Assembly (NCBI GenBank): GCA_011525625.1
Contig: WYAX01000015.1
Coordinates: 372,001 to 436,000 of the forward strand
Source: Nitrospira defluvii
GTDB lineage: Bacteria > Nitrospirota > Nitrospiria > Nitrospirales > Nitrospiraceae
DNA: 64,000 nt
Direction of reading: 5' to 3'
The stretch's first letter is position 1. Each line of letters opens with the position of its first letter. Positions 9,808 through 29,533 of this stretch are shown here, piece by piece. A program made the translations under genes and the position numbers. The notes beneath the pieces are model-generated. The model had not been told where the DNA came from, did no database searches, and saw only the letters and a list, made by a program, of their open reading frames with translations.

Positions 9808-10281
9808 TCAGGAGACCTTGACCTCGATGGATTTCGGTTTGGCCTTCTCCGATTTCGGCAGATGGACCTTCAGCACACCGTCTTTGTACTCCGCCGCGAC
9901 CCTGCTGCCATCGGCATCTTCCGGCAGCGTGAAGCTCCGCAGAAAACTGCCGTAGGCGCGCTCCACCCGGTGGTACTTCTTGTCTTTTTCTTCCTTCTCG
10001 TATTTCCGTTCGCCGGAAATGGCGAGCACATTGTCCTGCACGGTCAGCTTCACGTCTTCCTTTTTGATCTCCGGCAGCTCGGCTTTGATCAGATATTCCT
10101 TGTCGTCCTCCGTGATATCGACCAGCGGAGCCCATTCGGCTACCGAGATCGCTTCCTTTTGTCCTTCGACCTTCCCCTGGGGCCGTCCCCAGAGTGCCGA
10201 CAGACGCTTCTCCACATCTTCCAGTTCTTTCCAAGGGTTCCACTGCGCGCGAAACGGTTCCCAGCGTGTCAGTCCACTCAT
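9808..10281 (-). CDS. Small heat shock protein, Hsp20/alpha-crystallin family
   Basis: A 157-residue holdase chaperone that binds unfolding proteins without ATP. The alpha-crystallin domain runs from about residue 47 (WAPLVDITEDDKEYLI) to about 145 and includes the conserved segment YGSFLRSFTLP and the A-x-x-x-G-V-L-type end EYKDGVLKVHLPK. The N-terminal arm begins with a WEPF-type motif. I start at the ATG at 10281 because AAGGAG lies nine bases upstream; an earlier in-frame ATG lacks one. It is the first gene of the minus-strand stress cluster, so its promoter should lie in 10282-10530. Confidence 0.92.
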   Translation of the reverse strand: MSGLTRWEPFRAQWNPWKELEDVEKRLSALWGRPQGKVEGQKEAISVAEWAPLVDITEDDKEYLIKAELPEIKKEDVKLTVQDNVLAISGERKYEKEEKDKKYHRVERAYGSFLRSFTLPEDADGSRVAAEYKDGVLKVHLPKSEKAKPKSIEVKVS

Positions 10282-10535
10282 GATGCCGTCTCCTTTGTGC
10301 AAGCCTGTGGATGGTGCATCTGCGCCTGACCATCGACCATTCGTTCGTCACGCGCAACTGCTTCCGGACTATTGCAGGCCCGATGCCAGGAAGAAATCCT
10401 GCGATGGCCGCATCCGGGAGTGGCGAAAGTTCACTCGCTTAGAGCAATCGGCGAGGCGTCCTCCTGGTTGTCAGTGCCGGAGGGTGGGGCGATACGGGGC
10501 AGCAGCGCGGAGCGGCAATGGTGCCAATTACCTCA

Positions 10536-10829
10536 TTGATTCCAGGCCGACCGTGCTTACATGAATAGGTGAAGGGAGGTGGAGCCAGGATAAGGTCGAC
10601 ATCCCCGCTTCTGTGCAGCGAAGAGTTGGTTCGGGGATTGCGTCTGTGCCGGTTTCGGGATCAGTTCTGAAGGGACGCGCTTCCATCTCGGTGCCAGTAT
10701 GAGGCACGGCTCCAGTGGGAGCCCGATGAACGGGAGGCGCGGGACATCTGGCGTGAGCGTGGTGCCGGGGTGTCCGGATGGATCTCGCTCGGTCGGCAGG
10801 CCCGATCTCCACACGGAAGCGGGTTTTTT
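10536..10829 (+). ncRNA. Candidate structured noncoding RNA, copy A
   Basis: This intergenic stretch has no convincing reading frame but matches the region 28615-28931 over its whole length in the same order. Shared blocks are TTGATTCC followed 15 bases after TTGATT by TTAC and then GTGAAGG, CTCGGTGCCAGTA, GCGCGGGAC, and a T-rich end. Three hairpins follow one another: GTGCC/GGCAC (10691-10695 with 10703-10707), GGCTCC/GGAGCC (10708-10713 with 10718-10723) and CCCG/CGGG (10722-10725 with 10731-10734, sharing two bases with the second). The end, CCCG...CGGG followed by six T (10824-10829), looks like a Rho-independent terminator. No plus-strand gene lies upstream for it to serve. Boundaries are approximate and expression is not shown. 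Confidence 0.5.
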
Positions 10830-10856
10830 ATGTTCGCGCTGCCGGTCGTTCGGTCG

Positions 10857-11537
10857 CTAACGCAGAAACGCCTTCCGCAGTTTGAGCAGGTATGCATCGG
10901 CGAGGTCCGGGCGCGCCTGTTGCGTGCAGGTGCGAAGACGGCGAGCGGCCTCTTCACTCCAGTACTCCCCTAGATCGATGACTTCACCGGGCCGGTACTG
11001 TCCCGACTTGATCCGACGCACGACTTCGCCGACCGGAGTTTCCGAAATCCTGATACTGAAACTGCCGCGTTCCAGCAACTCGCAGAGATTAAACAGCACG
11101 CGCACGTAGGCCGCGGCGTATTTTGCCGGCCTGCCGTCTTTTTTCTCCAACATCTTCTTGCGCTGGTTCTCGCAGTAGTTGAGAAAGGAGTCATAGGCGG
11201 TCTGTGCGGACCAGAGACGGGGGAAGAGTTGCCGGAGCTCCGTGCCCCAGTCGTCCATCGTGACGACCGGAGCGACCAGCGTTTCCAGCACCAAGGGATG
11301 GCCCTGCAGCGCGAGCTGGAGAAAGTGCCCGATTTCCCAGGCGGTCTCGTCGTCTTCTTCCTTCATCATCCTCGTGCCTTGGTATTTGAAACCTACACGA
11401 AACAATTCAGCGGTGGGCAGCACGAACACGCTGCGGAAATCCTTGTCGCTGTCCGGTCCGGCCAGGCCGTGCGCATGCGAGCCGACGACGACTTTCAGGA
11501 TGCAGGTGTCGCTTGCTGGCAAGTGGGGGTTGGTCAT
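10857..11537 (-). CDS. Predicted nucleotidyltransferase, RlaP/DNA polymerase beta-like
   Basis: A 226-residue protein with the nucleotidyltransferase active-site pattern GSHAHGLAGPDSDKD at residues 19-33 (GS followed by a D-x-D pair). The pattern and length fit the RlaP-type family, predicted to add nucleotides in RNA repair or modification. The C-terminal part is helical and basic. The ATG overlaps the stop of the acyl carrier protein gene (ATGA), so it is the last gene of the pyruvate-dehydrogenase-type operon. A functional link with acyl metabolism is not obvious. Confidence 0.72.
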   Translation of the reverse strand: MTNPHLPASDTCILKVVVGSHAHGLAGPDSDKDFRSVFVLPTAELFRVGFKYQGTRMMKEEDDETAWEIGHFLQLALQGHPLVLETLVAPVVTMDDWGTELRQLFPRLWSAQTAYDSFLNYCENQRKKMLEKKDGRPAKYAAAYVRVLFNLCELLERGSFSIRISETPVGEVVRRIKSGQYRPGEVIDLGEYWSEEAARRLRTCTQQARPDLADAYLLKLRKAFLR

Positions 11538-11791
11538 GTTCGCGATGCGGCAACCTGGGCGACGCAACCGTTCAAGGTCATGTATTTGGGATAGTCGGTT
11601 TCAGGGATCTCGATGTGGAAGGCCTTGTGCAGTGCGACCACGAAGTTGAGGAAGTCCATCGAGTCGAGGTCGAGCTGCTCTCGAAAGCTGACATCGGGGT
11701 TGAGGCAGGCCAAGTCTGCCTCGGGGGCGATCTCGCCGAGAAGACGGAGAATTTGCGCGCGGGTGTCGGCGTCGGATGGTGTGGTCGTCAT
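11534..11791 (-). CDS. Acyl carrier protein
   Basis: An 85-residue acidic protein with the phosphopantetheine attachment motif DLDSMDF; Ser44 is the expected attachment site. It overlaps the E2 gene by four bases upstream and the nucleotidyltransferase gene downstream. The main fatty-acid ACP usually lies in a fab operon, so this is probably a specialised carrier. In this context it could carry the octanoyl group needed to lipoylate the neighbouring E2, or load acyl groups produced with the acyl-CoA synthetase. This is inference from gene order. Confidence 0.88.
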
Positions 11792-23486: not shown

Positions 23487-25325
23487 TCACTCCTCCGGGA
23501 TGAAACCACGACGCCCTTGGTCGTTCCCAGTGAATAGCTCGACGTTCACGCCATCGAGCATCCCATCGACAGGAAGTTGGTGGCTGTTCTCGATGATGAT
23601 GACCTGTGCTTCTGTGAAGGCGGTCTTCACGCTCTCCCAGAAGTGCTTCTTGATGTCCTGCGGAAACGACGACTCGTCCGCATCGGGCTCCTCGTAGACT
23701 AGAAGCGGAGAGTCGATGAGAACAAAGTTTGGGAACGGGCACTCGTCCTCGATGCAGAGGCGCAGGAGCGCGAGGTTGAACGCGGCCCTTGTTATGGCTC
23801 GCACGCCCTTGCCGTGGCTCCTACGCGCTCGCCCAGAAATTACGACGTCCTGGTCGTTCTCACTGAACGTGACGCGATCGAGTTCAGGGAAGTGCCATGC
23901 TTTCAGCAGCGCTTCGACTTCCCTACTGAACGGGTCGGCCTGAGCAGTGGTCACGGCTGCGCCAGCGACGTCGGTCTTATGCCTCTTCTTGGGCTTGTTC
24001 GCCTCTTCAAGCAGCTCGTTCAACTCCTGGATTCGCTCGAGGTGTTCGATCGCCTTGCGGCAGGCCTCTGCGCGTACACGTAGGTCATCAACCTTCTTGG
24101 AGGCCACCTCGACGTGCTGCCCCATCAACGCCTTCAGATCTGACGCAATCGCATCCAGTTCGCGCTGGCGCGTATTGCGGGTGCTTTGAAGCTGCTCGAC
24201 CTCGGCAGCGTTTGCGCTCCGAGTGGCCTGCAGATCCTGGAGAAGCTTGAACGTCTTGGCCGCCTCCGCCTTACACGAATACGCAACATCTGCAGGGGAA
24301 AGGCGCGTATCTTGATGGCTGTGGTCGTGATGTTCGGCGCGTGCACCGCACATCGGACAGCACTCCTCCTTGAGCTGATCGAGCCGAACCCCCGCCTCAG
24401 CGATTGTCTCCAACCTTCGTAAGTCAGACTCGTACTGCTCCTGCAGCAGGTCGAACCTCGTCTGGAGCTCAGACAAGACCGCGAGCTTTGACTCAGCCGT
24501 TTTCAGCGCCGTCCACACCGTGCTGCGCTTCGTCTGCAGAGGCGCGAGGTTAGCCTGCGCGGCGTTTCGCTCGGCAAGAGAAGTTTGAATCGATGCATCA
24601 ATCCGCGTCAGGCGCTCTCGTTCCTCGGCGAGGGTGCTCACCTCACCAAGCTCGGCGAGACGCCCGCGGGTCGTCTTCAGAAGGCCTTCGAGCAGCTCCA
24701 CCTTACCAGCCTGCCGCCCCTTTGCGACCTTTGGATCTTCCTTCGCAATGATTGAGGAATCGTCGGTGCCCGTGAGAAGTAGGCGAAACACACCGCTCTC
24801 AACCGTCTTGTGAATGACCTGGCCACTTAGTACGGGTGAGTCTTCCTTGATGACCGTCTCTTCGTCGATGATAACGAGTCGTGCAATATCGCGAAAGCTG
24901 AGCGGGCGCGTCGCGCCACGCTCGTTGGTGCGCACCTTTTTCGTGCCCAATCCCGACAGGTCGAGCAAGAACTGAGAGACTGTGTCTTCCTTGCCGCCTT
25001 GGTGTTTCGCCGAGAGTACACGGTCGGGTTTCCCGTCGGTCTTGCAGAGGATCTCACCGCCCCGCACGCTCCTCTCCAGCGAGTAGACGCGCTGGTCGCT
25101 GTTGGCCTCGATCTCGAGGACGACGGAACTGTAGCCAGCCGCTTCGGGGATCTCCTTCGGTGGGTCGCCGCTTCCCAGCGCATAGTCTAGGCACTGCGCG
25201 ATGAAACTCTTGCCGGTGTCCGAAGGCCCAGCGACCACGTTCAGGCCACGCGTGAATGTGACTACTGCGGGCGCCTTCCCCGGTCCGACCAGCGCGAGTC
25301 GCCGAATCGCGAAGCCAAACTTCAT
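23487..25325 (-). CDS. ABC-3C system ATPase, Rad50/SMC-like with CPMC hook
   Basis: A 612-residue ABC-class ATPase. Walker A is GPSDTGKS at 33-40. Residues about 200-460 are coiled coil, and a CPMC motif at 323-326, close to the middle, looks like a Rad50-type zinc hook. The C-terminal lobe has the Walker B segment FVLIDSPLL. ABC three-component (ABC-3C) systems, described by Krishnan and colleagues (2020), pair such an ATPase with a middle component and a variable effector in conflict with phages and plasmids. The start ATG overlaps the stop of the middle component (ATGA). It is the last gene of the operon. The C-terminal part is of the DUF3732 type as far as I can judge. Confidence 0.85.
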   Translation of the reverse strand: MKFGFAIRRLALVGPGKAPAVVTFTRGLNVVAGPSDTGKSFIAQCLDYALGSGDPPKEIPEAAGYSSVVLEIEANSDQRVYSLERSVRGGEILCKTDGKPDRVLSAKHQGGKEDTVSQFLLDLSGLGTKKVRTNERGATRPLSFRDIARLVIIDEETVIKEDSPVLSGQVIHKTVESGVFRLLLTGTDDSSIIAKEDPKVAKGRQAGKVELLEGLLKTTRGRLAELGEVSTLAEERERLTRIDASIQTSLAERNAAQANLAPLQTKRSTVWTALKTAESKLAVLSELQTRFDLLQEQYESDLRRLETIAEAGVRLDQLKEECCPMCGARAEHHDHSHQDTRLSPADVAYSCKAEAAKTFKLLQDLQATRSANAAEVEQLQSTRNTRQRELDAIASDLKALMGQHVEVASKKVDDLRVRAEACRKAIEHLERIQELNELLEEANKPKKRHKTDVAGAAVTTAQADPFSREVEALLKAWHFPELDRVTFSENDQDVVISGRARRSHGKGVRAITRAAFNLALLRLCIEDECPFPNFVLIDSPLLVYEEPDADESSFPQDIKKHFWESVKTAFTEAQVIIIENSHQLPVDGMLDGVNVELFTGNDQGRRGFIPEE

Positions 25326-25828
25326 TGCGCCTCCTCGGTCCAGAGAACAGACTCCATTGAGAATTCGGCACCCCACCTGCCGATGCGGTCGCGGACTATC
25401 GTGTTGAGCTCGGCGTCCTCAATCAGGCCGAAGCTGTCGACCACCCAGTCAGCGCGTTCGCGAAGGATCTTCAAGTACTCAGTGCTCAGCGTGTCGAGAA
25501 AATCGGCGGACTTGTCGGTTGCCGCAAAAAAGATGCCTCCGTCCTTGTAAACGCGCTCAACGAGTCCGCGGCTCTCGTAGAGAGTGAGGCCATCTTGAAG
25601 CACGCCGCGACGAACCAGGATCTCTCCTCCGCGATGAGGCGTTTGGGGATGCAGCCCCTCGGGCCCGCCCTCGATGTCATCAGAGTGAATGAGGAAGTAG
25701 TCGAAGATGACAAGCCGCTGTAGCGCATACGCCACAGGGAATGCTGTCGTCAGCACGCACAGCGCTCGCAGGCCGATCTCGACAGGCCCGTTGAATGGCG
25801 AGAGTAGCCGGGTTGATCTTTCCGTCAT
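25322..25828 (-). CDS. ABC-3C system middle component (type 2-like)
   Basis: A 168-residue protein. The N-terminal FNGPVEIGLRALCVLTTAFP, the HSDDIEGGPEGLHP segment and RGGEILVRRGVLQDGL match the pattern of the ABC-3C middle component 2, as I remember it. A winged-helix-like layout is likely. It is thought to connect the effector with the ATPase. I start at ATG 25828, which overlaps the effector stop as ATGA; a GTG at 25837 is possible. The stop also overlaps the ATPase start as ATGA, so all are translated together. Confidence 0.82.
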   Translation of the reverse strand: MTERSTRLLSPFNGPVEIGLRALCVLTTAFPVAYALQRLVIFDYFLIHSDDIEGGPEGLHPQTPHRGGEILVRRGVLQDGLTLYESRGLVERVYKDGGIFFAATDKSADFLDTLSTEYLKILRERADWVVDSFGLIEDAELNTIVRDRIGRWGAEFSMESVLWTEEAQ

Positions 25829-26913
25829 TTGACCCACCGGACCTTTCCATCATTGGCAAGCTGATGGCAGATGCCGCCACGATCACGCGTGTGGATGCGG
25901 GTGGTGAGCGGGTTGTTGGTAAGCTGTAGCGAGCGGGCTGTTTTCACCGCCGCGACAACGCGACGATAGCCGTCTGCGTGATCACTGCGGACCTCGTCCT
26001 TGATGCCGGAATGGACCTCGTCTTGTAGTTTTTCGAACTCGCCCGCAGGCAGCGTGTCCCGGGAGAAGGTTCGCAAGCCCTCAGCGCTATAGAACTCGAC
26101 GCGCGCGTCATGGAAGTGCTCGCGGAGGTCTTCCCGGGACGCCAGCTCTGCGTCGAGATCCTTCACGTCCTGTTTGAGATGATCCGCATACGCACGTCGA
26201 AGCTCACCGACAAAGATCGCCTCGTTGTCGGCCGGCATGCTTGGCGGCGGTAGCGGTTCAGGACGCGGTGGGAGTCCACCACCAAACCGCGCCACGTACC
26301 AGCGCGTCTTAGCGTGTTCTTCGATGATACGGAGGAGCGGCTTCGTCTTGAAGATCGAGAAGTCGAGGCTTGCGATATGCGCCTTCATCACAGCGTCGCA
26401 CTCAACGACTTGCGTCTTAGTGATTGCCGTTCGACACATCTTGTCCCAGTTCGCGAGAAGGCCATCACGCAGTGCTTGGGGCTTCTTCAAGAGGTTCGAG
26501 AGTTTAGGGCCGACTCCCTGCGGTGCAACGAAGAAGTAGCGTCGAGGGTACGAGTACTCGCCGTTCAGCGTGTAGTATGCGAGCTTGCCCAACTCGACCC
26601 AGACGTCGCTGGGCGCGAGCGCTCTATGGTAGTGCTTGCACTGGTAGTTATCCCACGCACCGTTGCCGCCCTTCACGGTCGCAATGACATCGCGTCCCAT
26701 GTCGCCTGCACCGCCGCACCGCTCGACCAGCTCGTATTCGGCCCGCAGCGAATCGACCCACTCCTGAACGAAGTGCTCCCACTGGTCAGGGCTGAAGAGC
26801 CTGACGCGGTCCGCAGGATGCACCGGAAGTCCCGATGCCACGACGTCCGCGGCCAGACCGGGCGGCGGCGCCGAAGGCTGAGGGACCGGGACGGGAGGCG
26901 GAATCGTCCTCAT
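25825..26913 (-). CDS. ABC-3C system effector with restriction-endonuclease-like N-terminus
   Basis: A 362-residue protein. After a Pro-rich leader (1-20), a domain at about 40-190 has the Mrr-like nuclease pattern: a helix with Glu (WEHFVQEW), then GRDVIATV with Asp75, then QCK at 91-93. These are the expected metal-binding residues of the PD-(D/E)xK fold. The rest (about 235-362) should be the C-terminal ABC-3C domain that contacts the middle component. The inference is DNA cleavage when the ATPase senses an invader. Its ATG overlaps the stop of the small upstream gene and its stop overlaps the middle component. Confidence 0.8.
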   Translation of the reverse strand: MRTIPPPVPVPQPSAPPPGLAADVVASGLPVHPADRVRLFSPDQWEHFVQEWVDSLRAEYELVERCGGAGDMGRDVIATVKGGNGAWDNYQCKHYHRALAPSDVWVELGKLAYYTLNGEYSYPRRYFFVAPQGVGPKLSNLLKKPQALRDGLLANWDKMCRTAITKTQVVECDAVMKAHIASLDFSIFKTKPLLRIIEEHAKTRWYVARFGGGLPPRPEPLPPPSMPADNEAIFVGELRRAYADHLKQDVKDLDAELASREDLREHFHDARVEFYSAEGLRTFSRDTLPAGEFEKLQDEVHSGIKDEVRSDHADGYRRVVAAVKTARSLQLTNNPLTTRIHTRDRGGICHQLANDGKVRWVK

Positions 26914-27598: not shown

Positions 27599-28000
27599 CT
27601 AGACGGGGAGAAAGTGGCGAACAATGACCTGGGAAATGTTCTGAAAATCGCGGTCTGAGGTGAGGATGGGAAGCCCGTGCTGCATGGCGCTGGCAGCAAT
27701 CCAGATATCGTTAGCGGCCACCGGGGTGCCGGCCTTTTTCAATGCCACGCGAATGGTCGCGTACCGTTCCGACGTCTCTTCGTCCACGATCAGCACGCTG
27801 ACGCGCGAGGATTCCAAAAACATTTGTAACTCACGCTCATGGCTTTCGCGTTTACTCCCCTGGAGAAAGCCCGCGCGAAGCTCTCCGAGGACAATCGGAC
27901 TGAGCCATATCTCTTCGGCTTGAGGAAGGATCTCAAGCACCTCGGGGTGTCTTTTCTTGAACGCGATATACGCGGAGCTATCCAGAAGTAGCCGGGTCAT
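27599..28000 (-). CDS. vapC: PIN-domain toxin, VapC/FitB type
   Basis: A 133-residue PIN-domain ribonuclease. The acidic metal-binding residues are visible in LLLDSSAYI (Asp7), VLGELRAG (Glu), AANDIWIA (Asp) and LTSDRDF (Asp). By family it cleaves tRNA or other RNA when not bound by its antitoxin, slowing growth. The ATG overlaps the antitoxin stop as ATGA. It lies 413 bases from the ABC-3C operon, which makes a small defence island. Confidence 0.9.
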   Translation of the reverse strand: MTRLLLDSSAYIAFKKRHPEVLEILPQAEEIWLSPIVLGELRAGFLQGSKRESHERELQMFLESSRVSVLIVDEETSERYATIRVALKKAGTPVAANDIWIAASAMQHGLPILTSDRDFQNISQVIVRHFLPV

Positions 28001-28257
28001 TTCCAGAGCTCCGGATCAATCGTGCGTTGCTCGGCAATGAGGACCTCGAAGGCGGCGGCCTCTTCCTTCGTCCAGGTTCCGGCGAGATGATCCAAATCAT
28101 GATAGCGGACCGGCGCTTTCTTTTTTCTCTTGCTCCCAACCGATTCTTCCAACAACTCGATGACCGCCTTATTGACGCTCGTCTTCTTCTGTTTGGCTCG
28201 CTGTTGAACTGTACGGGCAACGTCGGGTGGAAGGTTCCGTAACGTAATCGCTTTCAT
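27997..28257 (-). CDS. vapB: Ribbon-helix-helix antitoxin, VapB/FitA type
   Basis: An 86-residue protein. The first 40 residues (MKAITLRNLPPDVARTVQQR, then KKTSVNKAVIELLEE) are the ribbon-helix-helix DNA-binding domain. The C-terminal half, with DHLAGTWTKEEAAAF, should wrap the toxin. Such antitoxins repress their own operon, so an operator is expected just right of 28257. It is translated immediately before the toxin gene. Confidence 0.85.
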   Translation of the reverse strand: MKAITLRNLPPDVARTVQQRAKQKKTSVNKAVIELLEESVGSKRKKKAPVRYHDLDHLAGTWTKEEAAAFEVLIAEQRTIDPELWK

Positions 28258-28614: not shown

Positions 28615-28931
28615 TTGATTCCTGCTGTTCTGTGCTTACCTAATAAGTGAAGGAAAAGAGGCGCACAGCTTCTTGAGGTCAGCAGCCTCATGTGAGTGTG
28701 ACTCGTCCTTGTGCAGCCAGCGTGCGTAGGGCACCGCTTCTGCCTCGGTTGCGAGAAAGGGTTCACGGTACGCGCATTGTTTCTCGGTGCCAGTAGGCAC
28801 GGCCGTCGATGCGGTCCTTGTAAAGATCGATGCGCGGGACGATCAGCTAGTAAAGCGACTGAAGGATTGTCGAACTCTTCTCGGCCAGTCGGCAGCCCCG
28901 GTGTTCCACACAAGGGCGGGCCGTTTTTTTT
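28615..28931 (+). ncRNA. Candidate structured noncoding RNA, copy B
   Basis: Second copy of the element at 10536-10829. It begins with TTGATTCC, has TTAC 15 bases after TTGATT, then GTGAAGG, as in copy A. Hairpins are GTGCC/GGCAC with loop AGTA (28787-28800), GGCCG/CGGTC (28801-28805 with 28812-28816) and GATCG/CGATC (28825-28829 with 28840-28844). GGCACCG at 28730-28736 could instead pair with CGGTGCC at 28785-28791, giving two exclusive folds. The end is GC-rich and closes with eight T (28924-28931). The second hairpin keeps its place but has a different sequence from copy A, which is what RNA structure would predict. Confidence 0.5.
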
Positions 28932-29533
28932 CTCACCTCGAAAGCCCTCGATCGTACTTGTCGGCCTCTCTCCTCCTACGTCTGCGGATTCACGTCACAG
29001 AAACGCACGAATAGTTCTCAAGAAGGACAGCGTGTATGGTTTGTGCGTTGGATTGAAAGGCTGAGGAAATAAAAAAAGCAGGGCGGAGGCGGGTTCAGAG
29101 AGCGTCCGTCAACTCTGGAGGCCTTGGAGGGGTTTCAGGCTTCCCGCTTCGCACCTACGGGCCTGCTCACCACCCCTGCGCTCGACCTCGGTGTCCGTCT
29201 CTGTTCCTCTCACCGAAGCCTCCGCTCACTTTATAGATAACGTCGCTTCGGCAGCGGTCAAGCCGCTTAACTCCCGTCGTAGGGCGGCCACGCTACAGAG
29301 GAAATTCTGCTCTGTAGCATAATAGGGCAGCGGCAACGAGACGACCGCGTGTCCGTATCCTCTTCCGTTCAATACCGTTTGCAAACCCCTTGTTTCTTGG
29401 TCTGTTCTTCCTGTTCGTCTGTGCATGGTTGTCTCCATCGTCGAGGTCGCCCTGGCATAACCTATGCTGCCTTATGTGAAAATTAGGACAGGTGACGGTT
29501 CATGGTCGAGAGGCGCAAGAGGGGGCGCCGGTG
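28932..29533. other. Noncoding stretch before the second Usp gene
   Basis: About 600 bases with no supported gene. It contains a perfect nine-base inverted repeat, GCTACAGAG/CTCTGTAGC (29292-29300 and 29310-29318), and a third AATTAGGAC at 29481. The Usp promoter should be near the right end. Confidence 0.5.

Follow-up and report, generated by a model that had tools for sequence, protein, structure and literature searches.

A structured noncoding RNA family of Nitrospira with copies beside a 6S RNA paralog

Two intergenic elements, A and B, on the plus strand of a 64,000-nt stretch of Nitrospira defluvii DNA (the window, meaning the whole stretch analyzed) are paralogous copies of a single structured RNA, ~225 nt long without its 5′ leader, and we are nearly certain that they represent a new family of autonomous structured noncoding RNA (ncRNA). 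This RNA has no relative among known families; structured ncRNAs of unknown function are, as a general kind, already known from bacteria. We observe the family and its structure, the type of its promoter, its linkage to 6S RNA, a Shine-Dalgarno (SD)-like leader and the absence of an open reading frame (ORF), and we infer from these what the RNA may do.

Copies and distribution of the RNA

Copy A lies between two minus-strand genes, as a sequence-only reading of the window had described, and copy B is flanked by a FitA/PIN toxin-antitoxin pair on one side and a gene for a universal stress protein (Usp) on the other. Candidatus N. defluvii FP929003.1, from the same genus, carries A, B and the 6S paralog described below.

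9808-10302, minus strand: hsp20, one flank of A
10857-11567, minus strand: RlaP-type nucleotidyltransferase gene, the other flank of A
10603-10830, plus strand: structured domain of RNA A (covariance model, 186.6 bits; covariation)
about 28701-28931, plus strand: structured domain of RNA B (covariance model, 200.7 bits)

The sequence-only reading had quoted blocks common to A and B and taken the copies to be homologous, and all of these blocks are present in the same order. With A as the query, pairwise blastn against the same genome matched B only weakly (39 nt, 80%, E 0.37), so the two copies alone are not sufficient to settle homology. It is settled by profile searches, in which A and B match each other with E ~1e-20, and by a covariance model of the new RNA (R1; 225 positions and 70 pairs, from a 43-sequence alignment), which detected these two copies and no others in the 4.6 Mb genome, with the scores given above.

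Rfam 15 (4227 covariance models) gave no match at gathering threshold over the window, and A and B stayed unmatched even at E up to 5, which bears out the earlier impression that no known class fits. The RNA resembles the orphan structured RNAs from GC-IGR and CMfinder screens (e.g. PMC11109978) in being intergenic, covarying and of unknown function, but differs from them in being absent from Rfam 15. We found no relevant literature on Nitrospira small RNAs or 6S RNA, and Nitrospira goes unmentioned in the main texts of three structured-RNA screens that our search returned (PMC8632094, PMC11109978, PMC6429828).

Of 175 genomes of the GTDB family, 52 contained relatives of A and 71 relatives of B by blastn, and the R1 search returned 126 copies in 94 genomes and 18 of the 22 genera, with one to five copies per positive genome. 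The RNA is present in 62 of the 114 genomes of good quality; roughly half of the family's genomes lack it, so it must be dispensable. These surveys are limited by their reliance on metagenome-assembled genomes (MAGs). Two larger scans were run with strict filters. In a phylum-wide draw (396 genomes, 169 genera), all 59 positive genomes came from this one family and no copy was found in the other families sampled. A GTDB-wide scan for exact patterns yielded 103 stretches, from which R1 retained only Nitrospira/Nitrospirae records. Weak matches outside Nitrospira (L175, L153) were rejected because they fall inside coding DNA. Viral-contig pattern matches were likewise discarded, having no R1 match above ~10 bits, and no match to the RNA was found in plasmid and phage records.

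The A-type copies form their own clade, with which a deep-branching, 6S-linked copy (L070:18814) groups weakly. We also noted a set of low-scoring copies (~57-82 bits, ~214 nt), frequently from genomes in which a B-type copy is present as well, which possibly constitute a third subfamily (L079:10043-10256, G014:C9:144958-145167, G168:C72, G169:C6, G171:C17, G009:C39, G010, G012 and G170).

Fold and covariation

The common fold consists of a 12-bp closing stem (P1) with a U-tract behind it, followed inward by P2, P3 and a junction with P4 and P5; P5 in turn carries two hairpins, the almost invariant P6 (CGGUGCC-AGUA-GGCACGG) and P7. All positions below are on the plus strand.

10604-10615/10812-10823, plus: P1 of A
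10633-10640/10803-10810 and 10642-10646/10797-10801, plus: P2 of A
10656-10662/10781-10787, plus: P3a of A
10666-10669/10775-10778, plus: P3b of A
10743-10749/10768-10774, plus: P4 of A
10676-10684/10733-10741, plus: P5 of A
10691-10695/10703-10707, plus: P6 hairpin of A
10708-10713/10718-10723, plus: P7 of A
10824-10829, plus: U-tract of A
28702-28713/28909-28920, plus: P1 of B
28924-28931, plus: U-tract of B

A stem built from different bases in the two copies had been pointed out from the sequence, and this holds for several helices: P2 pairs GGGGAUUG with CGAUCUCC in A but GCACCG with CGGUGU in B, and P3b and P4 also differ. Over 89 distinct sequences, 92.1% of cells pair and 53 of the 70 pairs have changes on both sides. 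The same sequences hold 740 compensatory cells, compared with 246 ± 24 after shuffling (0/500), and pairing collapses to ~38-49% when partners are slid. In the seed alignment, where no fitting to the covariance model was involved, both-side changes occur in 46 of 70 pairs and 355 cells are compensatory (vs. 118 ± 13 in shuffles), and copies held out of the seed are 91.6% paired in an alignment fitted to R1. None of these counts is corrected for phylogeny. The sequence-only reading had suggested a new ncRNA family, to be checked by a covariance-model search and by covariation in the stems, and would have given the idea up had no homologues with compensatory changes existed; they do exist, in 94 of the 175 genomes, and the suggestion holds.

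The P6 loop has a base that covaries with one lying a few nucleotides 5′ of the hairpin (B-type: C-G in 22, G-C in 20, A-U in 2, U-G in 5 and unpaired in 6; A-type: C-G in 32), which suggests a tertiary contact. Other pseudoknot candidates from mutual information were mostly phylogenetic noise, and the P6 loop contact alone was clear. Unpaired purines at the junctions (AAGGGACGCGC, GAUGAA) are near-invariant.

Although minus-strand ORFs overlap both copies, and thus speak for coding DNA, no frame is open across the homologues (at best 21 of 33 in A and 19 of 54 in B), and a protein-coding or leader-peptide gene was rejected on this ground. Given this lack of a conserved frame, the compensatory changes, the two genomic copies and the missing plasmid or phage matches, we consider chance similarity, coding DNA or a mobile repeat to be practically ruled out.

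Promoter, leader and the 6S paralog

Not all of the blocks shared by A and B are part of the RNA. Two that had been read as RNA motifs, TTGATTCC and TTAC, lie 15 nt apart and are the −35 and extended −10 boxes of a promoter.

10490-10535, plus strand: A-type upstream block CGATACGGGRCAG ... GCCAATTACCTCA, from alignments
10536-10563, plus strand: promoter of A, TTGATT (−35) ... TGCTTACATG (extended −10)
10567-10602, plus strand: leader of RNA A, with SD-like GGAGGUG (10575-10581) and invariant CCAGGAUAAGG (10585-10595)
28615-28642, plus strand: promoter of B, TTGATT ... TGCTTACCTA
28645-28700, plus strand: leader of RNA B, with degenerate SD-like AAAAGAGGCG (28654-28663) and hairpin GAGGUCAGCAGCCUC (28675-28689)

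RNA A itself should therefore extend from ~10567 to 10829, with an inferred start site and no expression data. The pattern TTGATTY-N11-TGnTTA, with a drifting spacer, is common to A, B and most homologues, and two of its three occurrences in the genome are at A and B. Standard promoter and terminator scans called none of these sites, because the −10 box resembles that of sigma70 promoters only in part and the stem of the terminator is formed by P1, which pairs over a long range. The RNA ends like an intrinsic terminator, in its closing stem plus U-tract, and this end, the conserved promoter and the varied neighbors together indicate that it is autonomous. The block upstream of A is nearly invariant at A-type loci of the genus and missing from B; its GCCAATTACCTCATTGATT occurs once in the window and never in shuffles, and its GCCAATTACCTCA lies in the spacer that separates A from the divergent hsp20 gene. 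It is a probable activator or regulatory site.

Between the promoter and P1, the best conserved part of the leader is the SD-like GGAGGUG, a third conserved element that the sequence-only reading missed. An exact complement of at least 7 nt to the 16S tail is present in 34 of 35 A-type and 40 of 55 B-type leaders, typically ~21 nt (A) or ~38 nt (B) before P1, and the organism's own 16S rRNA ends in the usual tail, GGATCACCTCCTTTC. Predicted leader-16S duplexes are stronger than those of shuffled leaders in both types (A: −19.4 vs. −11.8 kcal/mol; B: −16.4 vs. −11.3 kcal/mol). No conserved start codon or ORF follows the element in A- or B-type leaders. A mini-frame of A-type leaders (GTG GAG CCA GGA TAA) was dismissed as a leader peptide, being broken in two loci (L018, L019) and absent in B. 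Purine-rich leaders easily yield SD-like sequences; moreover, the element is weakened in B of the window (AAAAGAGGCG), and GGAGGUG in A of the window is predicted to be only partly unpaired. Several GGA motifs, such as CCAGGAUAAGG in the A leader, recall the CsrB/RsmZ sponges, but the motif of the A leader is absent from B, Rfam gives no match, and by inspection of the alignments we found no GGA repeated in hairpin loops, the conserved loops being AGUA and AGURNGA.

6S RNA brakes transcription, binding sigma70-RNA polymerase and templating a product RNA. The main 6S RNA of this genome matches RF00013 and lies on another contig (C2:40118-40192); in relatives, RF00013 gives weaker matches just beside B-type copies. 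Just 3′ of B, on the other strand, we found a 6S paralog that had escaped the sequence-only reading.

29067-29229, minus strand: 6S RNA paralog, 155.8 bits with the R2 model, homologous to the main 6S RNA
29235-29261, minus strand: promoter of the 6S paralog, TTGACC ... CGTTATCT, of the same type as at A and B

The paralog shares the core GGUGGUGAGCAGGCCCG...CGGGAAGCCUGAA with the main 6S RNA and has a rod fold with a central bubble, and the A/B profile, in its promoter part, also matches the sequence upstream of it. It scores below the Rfam gathering threshold and is thus missed by standard annotation. Using a model of the Nitrospira 6S paralog (R2; strong copies have ~105 bits and more), we detected 117 strong copies in 98 genomes of the family. 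Almost half of the R1 copies (61 of 126) lie within 1 kb of a strong match, and these are mostly convergent (52 tail-to-tail, median gap 138 nt), with 8 in tandem, the 6S paralog upstream, and 1 divergent. Both RNAs occur in 79 of the 175 genomes, R1 alone in 15, the strong 6S paralog alone in 19 and neither in 62, again without correction for phylogeny. The pairing is a property of B-type copies, across genera; it does not extend to A-type copies, and an R1 copy is lacking next to about half of the 6S paralogs. In several genomes B is only a fragment beside an intact 6S paralog (L232, L233), which makes B the more dispensable partner. In a tandem group (L140:2059-2516, L145, L152, L169), 40-50 nt without a terminator-like U-tract separate the two RNAs, so they may be co-transcribed as a two-RNA operon, for which there are no expression data. 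A possible pairing between the RNAs in the window (GGGUUCA/UGAACCC) was rejected, since homologues inspected by eye do not keep it.

Neighbors and downstream genes of R1 copies vary between loci, and no protein gene is a constant neighbor. Stress genes occur near A (hsp20, Usp, phosphoribosyltransferase) and near B (Usp). A-type copies adjoin hsp20 and phosphoribosyltransferase genes, and in many genomes they are 0.6-22 kb from the B/6S site. An island of stress and carbon-metabolism genes (2521-23219) recurs around the RNA in other genera; it contains an ADP-forming acyl-CoA ligase, Usp, phosphoribosyltransferase, hsp20, pyruvate dehydrogenase parts, an AMP-binding ligase, PolX and malic enzyme. 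A candidate three-component ABC-3C defence locus (MC2, CTD6, AAA ATPase; 23487-26913) lies between the malic enzyme gene and B, and the PIN-domain toxin with its FitA-like ribbon-helix-helix antitoxin (27599-28257) is directly upstream of B.

Possible functions

The most economical reading, which we infer and hold only tentatively, short of even confidence, is that of an autonomous, trans-acting stress RNA with a 6S partner, whose 5′ end docks on the 30S subunit. A and B would be two genes for this RNA, each with its own promoter and 5′ leader. Slow growth or stress would cause this RNA and the 6S paralog to accumulate side by side; while the paralog held RNA polymerase, GGAGGUG, which complements the 3′ tail of 16S rRNA and is not followed by a conserved start codon, would dock the RNA on 30S, which might protect the RNA or damp initiation, and the folded body would bind a protein partner. 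Expression, stress timing, docking and the protein partner are all inferred. Against this mechanism stand the lack of expression data, the A-type copies without 6S linkage and the dispensability of the RNA.

A conservative view of the leader is that it merely stabilizes the RNA, 30S shielding the 5′ end, while the function resides in the folded body as a ribonucleoprotein scaffold or a protein-binding, ligand-binding or catalytic RNA. This is possible, if doubtful. The near-invariant junction purines and the P6 tertiary covariation point to a compact, specific fold, and 5′ SD sequences that stabilize RNA are already described (STAB-SD; Agaisse and Lereclus, 1996, as cited in PMC7509114). Like the STAB-SD of cry3A mRNA leaders, the element here is strong, near the 5′ end and without a properly spaced start codon, but it heads a structured ncRNA rather than an mRNA leader, and no binding data exist for it. 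Rfam, however, recognized no ribozyme or ligand motif, and without a constant protein-gene neighbor no partner is suggested. That a stand-alone gene with a rho-independent-like end and conserved unpaired leader segments encodes a classical base-pairing sRNA, acting in trans through an unpaired seed on mRNAs, appears distinctly unlikely, because a large, rigid, covarying fold is unusual for such an sRNA and the only conserved unpaired leader element complements rRNA, not mRNA.

The linkage to the 6S paralog raises the question of whether the RNA is itself a highly divergent 6S RNA whose direct target is RNA polymerase. Both are stand-alone ncRNAs, often neighbors, with the same promoter type and a closing stem followed by a U-tract. 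The model searches and the fold nevertheless exclude 6S identity: in the window, R2 matches neither A nor B and R1 does not match the 6S paralog, RF00013 misses both copies at E 5, and the fold is branched (covarying P4-P7) and its 5′ bulge lacks a 3′ bubble to match, whereas 6S RNA forms a rod whose central bubble is symmetric. The RNA is also larger (~225 nt plus leader vs. ~160-185 nt), and we rate this explanation as quite improbable. A cis-regulatory leader, riboswitch or attenuator, for a downstream gene would account for the terminator-like 3′ end, but gene context excludes that role; the gene after A is on the opposite strand, downstream genes vary by locus and a 6S gene converges on many of the copies, leaving it hardly credible.

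A bolder extension of the stress-RNA mechanism is a paired RNA brake, in which the 6S paralog occupies RNA polymerase and the adjoining, unrelated RNA occupies 30S through its SD mimic. We think this unlikely; if true, transcription and translation initiation would be damped together in slow-growing nitrifiers. The restriction to Nitrospira-type bacteria, the strong fold and the copy beside a second 6S RNA indicate that the RNA is probably part of stress management in slow-growing nitrifiers of this type, a function that remains inferred. Nitrospira are widespread nitrite oxidizers and comammox bacteria, and to our knowledge their regulation is almost unstudied. A covarying RNA in about half of Nitrospira genomes, stably paired with a second 6S RNA, offers a testable entry into the global control of slow growers, and raises the question of why a 6S paralog needs an RNA partner.
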